Part shown: one piece after another, positions 41,353 through 44,154 of the stretch
Layout: each line of letters begins with the position of its first letter
How positions within the stretch are numbered: position 1 is the stretch's first letter
Assembly (NCBI RefSeq): GCF_000813985.1
Contig: NZ_JWLJ01000006.1
Location: 186,001 to 250,000 of the forward strand
Length of the DNA: 64,000 nucleotides
Source: Ruegeria sp. ANG-R
GTDB lineage: Bacteria; Pseudomonadota; Alphaproteobacteria; Rhodobacterales; Rhodobacteraceae
Direction of reading: 5' to 3'
Position numbers and translations under genes: made by a program
The notes under the pieces: model-generated
The model's database searches: none
Told to the model about the DNA's origin: nothing
What the model saw: only the letters and a program-made list of their open reading frames with translations

Positions 41353-42378
41353 TCAGGCCTCTCCATGATTGCACTCTCGAAGCTGGAACAACCCCAGAGC
41401 ACTCACGACTTCGCGCTTCGTCGCATCGGTTCGCTCGCGGGCCCGCTCAGTGCCGTTCCGGATGACATTCAGAACATGGTCGCGATGTTCAGACAAATGC
41501 GCCCGCTGCTCGCGGATGGGTGCAATGAACGCCTGCAATATGTCTTCCAACCGTGCCTTGATCTTACCATCGCCAAGGCCGCCGCGTTGATAATGCGCCT
41601 TGAGATCTGCCAGATCATCCTTGGCCTCATCAAAGGCATCCAGATAGTTGAAGACCACATTGCCCTCGACCTGACCGGGATCCTCTACGCGCAAGTGGTT
41701 CGGGTCCGTGAACATGGCCCGGACGGCGCTACGGATCTCGTCGGGAGACGCAGAAAGCGAAATCGCATTGCCTCCGGACTTGGACATTTTCGCCTTTCCG
41801 TCAATCCCTGGCAGCCGGCCGGATTTGGGAATGACAGCGCACGCTTCAGGCAGAACCACCGCGCCTGCGGTTGCATTTATCCTGCGCACCAGCTCGTTTG
41901 TTTGCTCGATCAGGGGCGCCTGGTCTTCGCCGACGGGCACGACCGTAGCCTTGAATGCGGTGATATCCGCCGCCTGTGCTGCGGGATAGCAGAGAAAGCC
42001 GGCGGGGATGTTTCTGCCGAAACCGCGTGCCCGGATTTCATCTTTGATCGTCGGGTTGCGCTCCAGCCTCGCGACGGTGACGAAGTTCAAATAGAGCATC
42101 GACAGCTCCGCCAGCGCAGGCAGGTGCGATTGCAGGCAGATCGTTGTCCGCTCGGGGTCGATGCCCACAGCCAGATAGTCCAGCGCGACTTCGATGACGT
42201 TGCGACGCACCTTGTCGGGATCATGCGCGTTGTCGGTCAGGGCTTGCGTGTCCGCCAGGAGCAGGAATTGTTCATGGCTGTCTTGATAGCGCAGGCGATT
42301 GGAAAGCGATCCCGCGTAGTGGCCGATATGCAGCGGCCCCGTGGTGCGGTCTCCGGTCAGTATGACAGGTTTGGTCAT
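41353..42378 (-). CDS. trpS: Tryptophan--tRNA ligase under Trp attenuation
   Basis: A 341-residue class I synthetase. The ATP motifs are TGDRTTGPLHIGHYAGSL (HIGH at about residues 17-20) and AKMSKS near residue 200; YPAAQAADI and the VPVGEDQAPLIE helix are typical TrpRS. It charges tRNA-Trp. Start 42378 has ACGAGGA upstream; the frame upstream of it is part of the leader RNA. Transcription appears controlled by the leader peptide and terminator at 42428-42530, so expression should rise when charged tRNA-Trp is short. It may be a second, inducible TrpRS, as with indolmycin-resistant enzymes of Streptomyces; a second copy cannot be checked here. Confidence 0.92.
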   Translation of the reverse strand: MTKPVILTGDRTTGPLHIGHYAGSLSNRLRYQDSHEQFLLLADTQALTDNAHDPDKVRRNVIEVALDYLAVGIDPERTTICLQSHLPALAELSMLYLNFVTVARLERNPTIKDEIRARGFGRNIPAGFLCYPAAQAADITAFKATVVPVGEDQAPLIEQTNELVRRINATAGAVVLPEACAVIPKSGRLPGIDGKAKMSKSGGNAISLSASPDEIRSAVRAMFTDPNHLRVEDPGQVEGNVVFNYLDAFDEAKDDLADLKAHYQRGGLGDGKIKARLEDILQAFIAPIREQRAHLSEHRDHVLNVIRNGTERARERTDATKREVVSALGLFQLRECNHGEA

Positions 42379-42427
42379 ATGGGTGTCCTCGTAGATTGTG
42401 AGGCACCGCATTGGGGAGCATGGATAC

Positions 42428-42451
42428 AAAAAGACCGCCCAAGCGGCGGCC
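42428..42451 (-). terminator. Attenuator terminator in the trpS leader
   Basis: On the minus strand a seven-base stem GGCCGCC/GGCGGTC (42445-42451 with 42433-42439, one G-T pair) with a five-base loop is followed by five T residues (42432-42428), 50 bases before the trpS ATG. An alternative pairing exists: GCGGCC at 42473-42478 can pair with the GGCCGC of the upstream arm and so prevent the terminator. Confidence 0.85.
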
Positions 42452-42479
42452 TCGGAATAGATGGTATTGTCCGGCCGCG

Positions 42480-42530
42480 TTATTTCGGGGCCAGCCACCA
42501 GAGTGTCGAAAGGAGCATCAGGTTATCCAT
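42480..42530 (-). CDS. trpS leader peptide with tandem Trp codons
   Basis: A 16-codon frame from ATG 42530 to TAA 42480-42482 encodes MDNLMLLSTLWWLAPK. The two adjacent TGG codons (11 and 12) lie just before a segment CTGGCC (42489-42494) that can pair with GGCC of the antiterminator strand at 42473-42478. Stalling at the Trp codons would free that strand and block the terminator. There is no Shine-Dalgarno site, but the promoter position suggests a leaderless start, as known for trpL of Sinorhizobium. Confidence 0.8.
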   Translation of the reverse strand: MDNLMLLSTLWWLAPK

Positions 42531-42537
42531 GCCGACA

Positions 42538-42566
42538 GCAGTATTGCCGGAAACGAATGCCGTCAA
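42538..42566 (-). promoter_or_regulatory. Candidate sigma-70-type promoter of the trpS leader
   Basis: On the minus strand TTGACG (42566-42561) is followed after 15-17 bases by a weak -10 (AATACT at 42545-42540 or TACTGC at 42543-42538). Transcription would start within a few bases of the leader ATG at 42530, which explains the lack of a ribosome-binding site there. Confidence 0.45.
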
Positions 42567-42738: not shown

Positions 42739-44139
42739 TTACACTGAAGTGTGCCAGACAAGCTTACCTGTCTCCAACTGACCTTCACTCATATCCTCTC
42801 TCGGGCACCAGATAGAAAAGCCATGCTCATGCTCTCTTAGAATGCCCAAAGCGTCATCAGATCGGAAAGTGATCAAACAATCCATGCCGCGCAGTTCAAC
42901 AGGATGCGTTGACGGGGGCAATGCGCGTCCAAACAAACGATGGAACCGGTATCCCGTGAGGACATCGGACAGAACACACTGTAGATACGAAGGTATGTCA
43001 GCGAGGTCACCCTTGTCGATACCGTCTTTCCTGTTTTTGACGTATGCCCTCAGATGCCGGGAAATGAACGCTTCGCGGCTTGGTGCAAGCGCCCATTTCA
43101 TCGAAACTTCACCAAGTTGTTCAGCAAATGCTCTGCGCTTCTCGAGGATGCTCTTCAGTTCACCCTGGTCGATTGGAGCATCAGGTGGCATCGCCTTTGC
43201 TTTCGCCACAAATTGATCGAAAGCTTCAAAAAATTCAGGGCCAAACCTTTCCATTGCCGCATAGTGCTGTGCCATCCGCTTGTCATGGCCTTCCAGGGGA
43301 GGCGAGTTTTCGTCACGTTGTGACATCTTCTGATTAAACTCCTGCCGCCACTTGTCGTCATAAGTGCGGTTGTAGGCAACGCGCTGGGCTTCGCCTGCTG
43401 CAATTCCCCAATTGGTGATCCACTCTTCGGCGGGTGGGTCGATAAACGCGCGGTCCTCGCCAGCGTCCATCTCGTAATGCAGATCGAGCGCCCAACGCGG
43501 GAACGTCTTTCCAAGATTGAAGAACCCGGCATCATTCAGATCCGGAAGATCCTCCGGGGCCTGCCTTGGCTGCGCTTTCTGCATCTGCTCCTCGGTCAGC
43601 TGAACAACGCGATAGCTACCCGTATCCTGGCGCAGGAAAGACACAAACAGAAGCAGCGCCCCACTGTCATTCAATTTGACAGGCTTTGGCTCTAACAAGG
43701 CACCAAGGTCGATCTGAAGAACAAAATGCATCGGTCTCCCGTCAGGGTCGCGCGGCCATGCGTGAGCAATCGGCAAAAGCGGCAAACCACCAAACCAGGA
43801 TGTTGCGGATTGGTTTGCCTCAAACGGTGAGCGGAGGTGCAAAAACCAAGTGGGCAGTTCCGCGGCACGATCAGCCTCACCATCCATAGCGAGAAGTTCG
43901 CTGTTTCGGAAATCATCGTCCTTGGTGTTCCAGACGGTTTCCTTCTCGGGTGTTGTGTTCAGCTTTGTTTCTTCCGGCCAGTGCTTGACAAGAAGACCGA
44001 CAAAACAAAGGGCAATGAAAAAGAACAGGCACAGAACGCCTTGCGCCAATGATATTTCACGTAGCTGGATGCCAATGGCGGCAATTGCCACAAACATGAA
44101 AGCTGCCGCGAAGAAAAAGGAGCTTATTATCTTTTGCAT
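42739..44139 (-). CDS. DUF1963 (YwqG-type) protein with two N-terminal membrane helices
   Basis: A 466-residue protein with hydrophobic segments at about 3-25 and 30-52, then a cytoplasmic or periplasmic DUF1963-type domain: SWFGGLPLLPIAHAWPRDPDGRPMHFVLQIDLG and LLLFVSFLRQDTGSYRVV. The central part is charged and helical. I use ATG 44139; the frame upstream opens only with a TTG. DUF1963 function is unknown. It is transcribed on its own, tail to tail with nothing obvious. Confidence 0.75.
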   Translation of the reverse strand: MQKIISSFFFAAAFMFVAIAAIGIQLREISLAQGVLCLFFFIALCFVGLLVKHWPEETKLNTTPEKETVWNTKDDDFRNSELLAMDGEADRAAELPTWFLHLRSPFEANQSATSWFGGLPLLPIAHAWPRDPDGRPMHFVLQIDLGALLEPKPVKLNDSGALLLFVSFLRQDTGSYRVVQLTEEQMQKAQPRQAPEDLPDLNDAGFFNLGKTFPRWALDLHYEMDAGEDRAFIDPPAEEWITNWGIAAGEAQRVAYNRTYDDKWRQEFNQKMSQRDENSPPLEGHDKRMAQHYAAMERFGPEFFEAFDQFVAKAKAMPPDAPIDQGELKSILEKRRAFAEQLGEVSMKWALAPSREAFISRHLRAYVKNRKDGIDKGDLADIPSYLQCVLSDVLTGYRFHRLFGRALPPSTHPVELRGMDCLITFRSDDALGILREHEHGFSIWCPREDMSEGQLETGKLVWHTSV

Positions 44140-44154
44140 GGGTGGATCGTTCAA

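Follow-up and report, generated by a model that had tools for sequence, protein, structure and literature searches.

The 64,000-nucleotide stretch of Ruegeria sp. ANG-R DNA analyzed here (contig NZ_JWLJ01000006.1, positions 186,001–250,000; hereafter the window) holds a complete ribosome-mediated tryptophan (Trp) attenuator for a tryptophanyl-tRNA synthetase (TrpRS) gene, trpS. The element lies on the minus strand at 42566-42376 and comprises a promoter, a leader, segments 1–4 and a U-tract terminator, and it has the tandem Trp codons and the intrinsic terminator upstream of the gene that characterize trp-type attenuators. We consider it highly likely that this is a ribosome-mediated transcription attenuator, by which a shortage of charged tRNA-Trp would induce an auxiliary TrpRS that is probably resistant to indolmycin. 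The reading is carried by the anatomy of the element, its conservation, covariation in the terminator helix and its association, among the tested genomes, with the presence of two TrpRS genes.

The promoter (42566-42538) consists of the -35 element TTGACG (42566-42561), a 17-nt spacer and the -10-like TACTGC (42543-42538), which is followed by 7 nt to the leader ATG. The leader peptide gene, MDNLMLLSTLWWLAPK plus stop (16 codons, 42530-42480), has no Shine-Dalgarno (SD) sequence, and its regulatory Trp codons, codons 11 and 12, occupy 42500-42495. Segment 1 (CTGGCC, 42494-42489) is complementary to segment 2 (GCGGCCGG, 42478-42471, with GCGGCC at 42478-42473), which can also pair with segment 3, the 5' arm and loop of the terminator (GAGGCCGCCGCTTG, 42453-42440). 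Segment 3 has two further partners, namely segment 4, the terminator 3' arm GGCGGTC with its U5 tract (42439-42428), and segment 5 (CAATGCGGTGCCTC, 42413-42400), which stands just 5' of the trpS SD sequence GAGG (42390-42387). The trpS gene itself runs from its ATG at 42378 to 41353. An initial annotation of this DNA had placed the TTGACG box, the leader, the Trp codons, CTGGCC, GCGGCC and the terminator (42451-42428, with T5) at exactly these positions; segment 5 is an addition to its layout.

None of 200 dinucleotide shuffles folds as well as the real leader RNA (z -3.3). Short open reading frames (ORFs) with adjacent Trp codons close to their end, here called WW leaders, are common by chance, at 1.75 per shuffled window (60 shuffles). 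Requiring a U-tract hairpin no more than 90 nt away as well lowers the expectation to 0.017 per shuffled window (60 shuffles, both strands), and the real window contains a single case, listed under each of its two in-frame ATGs. Nothing in the window matches Rfam at the gathering score, which leaves no match to a riboswitch, a T-box or any other Rfam family. The best sub-threshold match at the attenuator is RF00513 (Trp_leader), whose 20.2 bits fall short of the gathering score for membership, 41.

The 341-amino-acid product matches TIGR00233 with 224.3 bits (cut-off 176.75), and its closest solved structures are the TrpRS II entries PDB 2a4m and 1yi8 (371 bits, the next 212), which we take to be from Deinococcus radiodurans. 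The main, housekeeping-type TrpRS is encoded on another contig of the same genome and shares 29% identity with it, so the window gene, nearest to TrpRS II and second in its genome, encodes an auxiliary TrpRS of the TrpRS II type. At the His43 position the window enzyme and 64 of 64 aligned TrpRS II proteins have Gln, and the main TrpRS of the same genome has His. This His aligns with His43 of PDB 1i6k, which we take to be B. stearothermophilus TrpRS. In the latter enzyme a His43 to Asn change is reported to confer indolmycin resistance (PMC4899734). We predict from the alignment that the window TrpRS is probably indolmycin-resistant. The Gln is also present in those Cupriavidus and Acinetobacter enzymes that are the sole TrpRS of their hosts, and it is therefore a mark of the family rather than of an auxiliary function. 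A link with nitric oxide (NO) synthase was rejected for this genome, which has zero PF02898 matches and hence no such partner for the enzyme.

To follow the element across genomes, we pooled TrpRS II loci from family and order genomes with those of a named-genome scan (best 80 of 569 candidate stretches kept), which gave 106 loci, the window included, after five of 111 (L002, L003, L016, L028 and L029: main TrpRS, fragments and decayed copies) were left out. A WW leader of 8–20 codons stands upstream of 82 of the 106, a count in which the window is included and some genomes appear more than once; it reduces to 75 distinct leader regions. These fall into a terminator class (class 1; alignment A2, 39 rows) and a class without U-tract, hereafter U-less (class 2; alignment A3, 36 rows, with L097 excluded for its long spacer and L110 included). 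The split was set by hand where L066, L069 and L092 passed a lax U-tract rule and were placed in the U-less class, and where L013 and L022 failed it and were placed in the terminator class. The 24 loci that lack the leader comprise nine from Cupriavidus, eight from Acinetobacter, three at a contig edge (L025, L031, L038), one 5'-truncated gene (L074), one in which the WW is present but the leader stop is lost (L061), one without WW (L063) and one with a single Trp codon (L110). In L061 the ORF continues past segment 2; if this is real, a terminating ribosome would no longer stand over segment 2 at the usual place.

The initial annotation had named orthologous loci without the WW leader or the hairpin as grounds for rejecting an attenuator. 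Apart from the window and L016, which lacks its front, all 12 remaining TrpRS II matches in the family have a WW leader, and 10 of these 12 full-length orthologues have a U-tract terminator called by script, the exceptions being L013, with a hairpin and a weak U-tract, and L015, with a hairpin and no U-tract. Invariance of the Trp codons in A2 is by construction, given that rows were picked by WW and cut at WW. The leader peptides vary, with 33 different ones among the 39 terminator-class loci. Over the same 39 loci the 3:4 helix is 99.3% paired (97.6% in shuffled alignments), and three of its seven pairs are changed on both sides, compared with 0.5 in shuffled alignments. The terminator helix is conserved with compensatory changes, which the initial annotation had proposed to look for. 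The 2:3 helix is 94.5% paired in A2 (92.2% shuffled, 30–70% when slid). In the window the 2:3 duplex reaches -14.5 kcal/mol against -8.4 kcal/mol shuffled (p 0.02), and it beats shuffles at p <=0.05 in 33 of 39 terminator-class and 19 of 36 U-less loci.

In all 39 terminator-class loci the promoter has a TTG whose first base is at -36 or -35 relative to the leader ATG (TTGAC in 33), where 500 rounds of mononucleotide shuffling place one at a given pair of positions in at most 8 loci, and TA is found at -13 or -12 in 39/39. In the U-less class TTG stands at the matching place in 24 of 35 loci (shuffled maximum 6), and TTGAC in none. A 4-mer resembling an SD sequence precedes the leader ATG in 3/39 terminator-class loci, equal to the control position (3/39). 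The fixed promoter-to-ATG distance makes it very likely that the RNA starts at or beside the A of the leader ATG, in line with the start proposed initially, and because the -35 TTG keeps this distance in all 39 loci the leader mRNA is probably leaderless. The rnTrpL RNA of Sinorhizobium meliloti likewise begins at the leader ATG (PMC7298713).

We propose the following switch. RNA polymerase would start at or next to the leader AUG. With Trp-tRNA plentiful, the ribosome would reach the leader stop codon and cover segment 2, segment 3 would pair with segment 4, and transcription would end at 42428. With Trp-tRNA scarce, through Trp starvation or inhibition of the main TrpRS, the ribosome would stall at codons 11–12 and cover segment 1 only; segment 2 would pair with the emerging segment 3, the terminator would be pre-empted and trpS would be made. 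We simulated this over the 39 terminator-class loci, with assumed ribosome footprint edges. With the ribosome stalled at either Trp codon, the mean probability of the 2:3 helix, P(2:3), while segment 3 emerges is 0.86, and it exceeds 0.5 in 36/39 loci. Without a ribosome the mean is 0.10, and a ribosome at the leader stop codon covers segment 2 in 36/39 loci. Predicted 2:3 occupancy hence depends on ribosome position, as the competing layout in the initial annotation supposed, and in silico the antiterminator forms when the ribosome stalls at the Trp codons.

Several observations weigh against this reading. Both-side changes in the 2:3 helix are limited to one pair in A2, a number reached by 404 of 500 shuffles, and the class-1 1:2 helix, which uses Trp-codon bases, is 95.4% paired in A2 with zero both-side changes. 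After segment 4 has emerged, the terminator beats 2:3 at equilibrium in most loci even when the ribosome is stalled (mean P(3:4) 0.84–0.85), which requires a kinetic switch. In L014, L047 and L048 the 2:3 helix is not formed in the tested register. TrpRS II is patchy, being found at E 1e-60 in 14/394 family genomes and 21/390 order genomes (overlapping sets, with the window's genome in both). Finally, a covariance model of class 1 (R1) finds the window attenuator as its best match in the window's genome (105 bits), followed by a second match of 42.7 bits at L117:1466-1620 (C1:93537-93655) that has no Trp codons.

This second site, L117, has a 17-codon leader-like ORF, a U-tract hairpin and then a 67-amino-acid ORF, together with a complement that resembles segment 5 (-24.0 kcal/mol, compared with -9.9 kcal/mol for shuffles, p 0.001). 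The 67-amino-acid ORF has no Pfam match, and when 198 family genomes were searched none of the 197 others had it; its reading as a DUF1127 gene was dropped, given that Pfam gave nothing. In the same genome, which has a further trpE-like match at L115, no WW leader was seen upstream of trpE (L114) or of the main trpS (L112). A gene for a DUF1963 protein (window 42739-44154, minus strand) is the upstream neighbor of the attenuator on the same strand.

In 46 named genomes (chosen from the 80 loci; 47 minus L048), those with a leader have two TrpRS in 37/37 cases, counting L110 with its single Trp codon, and those without have one TrpRS in 9/9, although this association is confounded by kinship. 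The exception to this confounding is Cupriavidus basilensis, which has the leader and two TrpRS, versus five Cupriavidus without the leader in the same test. Wherever TrpRS II is an additional TrpRS of a tested genome, the switch is present, and wherever it is the sole one, the switch is absent. The genome G625 has two TrpRS II genes (L024 and L030), each with its own MESTKIISNFWWLVSS leader. The metagenome-assembled genomes of L039 and L040 are labeled Nitrospira and Parvibaculum and have like-named isolates; their leader regions are identical, and one label may be a binning error.

In a plasmid collection, 71 records match TrpRS II. Of 15 retrieved, 13 have a WW leader: Roseibium, two E. coli, Klebsiella, Salmonella, Variovorax, Burkholderia, Vibrio, Salinivibrio, Photobacterium, Agrobacterium, Proteus (GTG start) and a Deinococcus, where one E. 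coli and the Klebsiella record share a protein accession and several large records may be chromosomes. The other two are Acetobacter, with one Trp codon, and S. epidermidis, with none. L124, L129, L131 and L135 are TrpRS II genes on plasmid records of E. coli, Klebsiella and S. epidermidis, and the Klebsiella gene adjoins a tryptophan permease gene. A further match, H93, on a 9.3 kb record of Streptomyces griseorubiginosus, scores like the S. epidermidis plasmid copies and is possibly contamination.

In a quick tree of 64 TrpRS II proteins, with 11 further leader rows unclassed, 20/20 U-tract rows fall in one alphaproteobacterial clade of 21 (support 99), whose 21st row is the U-less L053. Two changes are needed for terminator versus U-less and four for leader versus none; because the root is placed for drawing only, at a junction of long branches, a gain is indistinguishable from a loss. 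Relatives have decayed or partial TrpRS II copies (L016, L028, L029) that lack the front or bear stops. The third TrpRS-like match in the window's own genome (L003:1501-1641) is a 47-residue C-terminal fragment, with the rest of the enzyme absent. These copies together suggest repeated gene loss.

The U-less class keeps the WW-type leader and has a hairpin at the position of the terminator without the U-tract. Its 1:2 helix is 98.6% paired with three pairs changed on both sides (A3); its 2:3 helix is 98.9% paired but almost invariant, and a 3-column slide pairs equally, which makes the count uninformative. Predicted P(2:3) is 0.94 stalled versus 0.12 free. RNAalifold on A3 instead joins segment 3 in a long-range helix with segment 5, just 5' of the trpS SD sequence. 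This 3:5 helix is 92.1% paired (82.1% shuffled, 27–69% slid), with 36 both-side-changed cells (shuffled mean 14.4, slid 1–29) and a covariation score of 0.385 (0.203 shuffled, 0.04–0.15 slid), where related rows may beat shuffles without any structure but the slid controls are clear. The counts of pairs and pair types are unremarkable, being reached by 77 and 303 of 500 shuffles. The 3:5 helix covaries in these sister lineages without a U-tract.

For the window's own class, conservation of 3:5 is more telling than covariation. In A2, 87.2% of its cells are paired (18–53% slid, 85.9% mean shuffled), the covariation score is 0.145 against 0.126 shuffled, and both-side changes occur in two pairs and three cells. 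In the window, GAGGCCGCCGCTTG and CAATGCGGTGCCTC form a duplex with one bulge at -19.6 kcal/mol, compared with -10.5 kcal/mol shuffled (p 0.013). An alignment-free test of the arm and loop against the downstream sequence, using dinucleotide shuffles, reaches p <=0.05 in 32/39 terminator-class and 29/36 U-less loci. The same test succeeds in 6/12 plasmid-collection loci (12 of the 15 retrieved were tested) and fails in two E. coli, Salmonella, Salinivibrio, Deinococcus and Photobacterium.

Any RNA on which segment 5 acts must already have been read through the terminator, so its role is most naturally read as one in translation or stability of the read-through mRNA. We propose that segment 5 probably adds a check on this mRNA. 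A fuller version would be a two-layer attenuator in which segment 3 chooses among segment 2, arm 4 and segment 5, a mimic of arm 4, so that the leader could gate first transcription and then translation of the read-through RNA; we put this forward tentatively, as a serious possibility that we stop short of favoring. Predicted accessibility of the SD sequence counts against a role of segment 5 in translation or stability, being near-equal stalled and unstalled (means 0.25–0.29 in class 1, 0.15–0.17 in class 2). A stall-dependent opening of the trpS SD sequence was accordingly rejected. Folding of the window also predicts a local hairpin over the SD sequence; as a feature of class 1, this CCTC:GAGG hairpin was rejected at 51.9% paired, no better than slid controls, and in class 2 it is weakly supported. 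CCTC has two possible partners in the window, segment 3 and the SD sequence, so the effect of segment 5 may have either sign. If the two-layer reading is true, lineages without the U-tract keep the second, translational gate alone, and a few U residues gained or lost would interchange transcriptional and translational attenuation around one conserved core.

The strongest competitor to transcription attenuation is control mainly at the level of translation, with 3:5 beside the trpS ribosome-binding site as the OFF state, 2:3 as the ON state and the terminator peculiar to one alphaproteobacterial clade. It would account for the 36 U-less loci, which retain the leader, 1:2, the 2:3 complementarity and the covarying 3:5 helix, for the confinement of U-tract rows to one clade (20 of its 21 rows, two changes between the classes) and for a class-2 mean P(3:5) on full-length RNA that falls from 0.54 free to 0.34–0.35 stalled. 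The window has a clear U-tract terminator, however, the SD sequence is almost equally accessible in both ribosome states, and the hairpin over it is unsupported or weakly supported as described above; we regard translational control as unlikely here, although it deserves a minority share of the credence. Much less probable is Rho-dependent attenuation, in which stalling would hide or expose a C-rich stretch 3' of the hairpin, as proposed for a Sinorhizobium DUF1127 gene. The U-less class does have a pyrimidine-rich, G-poor spacer 3' of the hairpin (by eye), and ORF-linked, probably Rho-dependent attenuation with an upstream ORF is reported in S. meliloti (PMC12218461), but the window's class has a good intrinsic terminator helix, paired at 99.3%. 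That the WW ORF is untranslated and the hairpin merely the terminator of an upstream transcript is very hard to credit, since, common as WW ORFs alone are by chance (1.75 per shuffled window), their combination with a U-tract hairpin is not (0.017), the leader is present at 82/106 TrpRS II loci and, in the 46 genomes tested, missing where TrpRS II is the sole TrpRS, and the promoter distance and hairpin, which were not selection criteria, are retained despite 33 different peptides in 39 loci.

Leader control of TrpRS II is recurrent and not a Streptomyces peculiarity, given that WW leaders occur at alpha-, beta- and gammaproteobacterial loci and in one Deinococcus, plasmid records included. 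It probably gives environmental bacteria a way to tolerate inhibitors of TrpRS, among them indolmycin, a product of marine Pseudoalteromonas (PMC5069768). The natural variants with and without the U-tract are test material for the interconversion of transcriptional and translational attenuation. The literature searched yielded no description of this distribution, of a proteobacterial TrpRS II under a Trp attenuator or of anything resembling segment 5, which is weak evidence of absence given that most subscription papers lie outside it.

Among known systems, Deinococcus radiodurans TrpRS II is the nearest solved relative and has the same Gln at the His43 position. Its described partner is an NO synthase (PMC9437257), unlike in the window's genome, which has no match to that family. 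In regulation, a close parallel is the Streptomyces precedent cited in the initial annotation, which is real as judged by citation.

The gene of that precedent is reportedly trpRS1 of Streptomyces coelicolor, which is actinobacterial. By its title, as cited elsewhere, the work (Vecchione and Sello 2010) concerns attenuation of an auxiliary, antibiotic-resistant TrpRS gene, and Kitabatake 2002 is cited for a TrpRS whose expression is induced in S. coelicolor, together with resistance to indolmycin; both systems would share an auxiliary, resistant TrpRS gene under ribosome-mediated transcription attenuation. The trpS2 gene of S. avermitilis likewise has a candidate classical attenuator upstream of a TrpRS gene, but this is an actinobacterial prediction, and segment 5 is not mentioned in the part of the source consulted (PMC1262725). 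In S. meliloti, an alphaproteobacterium, the Trp attenuator trpL/rnTrpL also has an RNA that starts with the leader ATG, but it controls trpE(G) and not an aminoacyl-tRNA synthetase (PMC7298713). The initial annotation knew of no case in roseobacters; the alphaproteobacteria are not wholly without precedent, given that ribosome profiling found a putative small leader coding sequence on Caulobacter trpS mRNA (PMC4117421). Within the Rhodobacterales, ribosome-mediated attenuation is also predicted for another aminoacyl-tRNA synthetase gene, cysS, through the uORFC-8-2 motif with its tandem Cys codons (PMC8632094). The mechanism is known, and what appears new, against the literature searched, is its wide distribution and segment 5.

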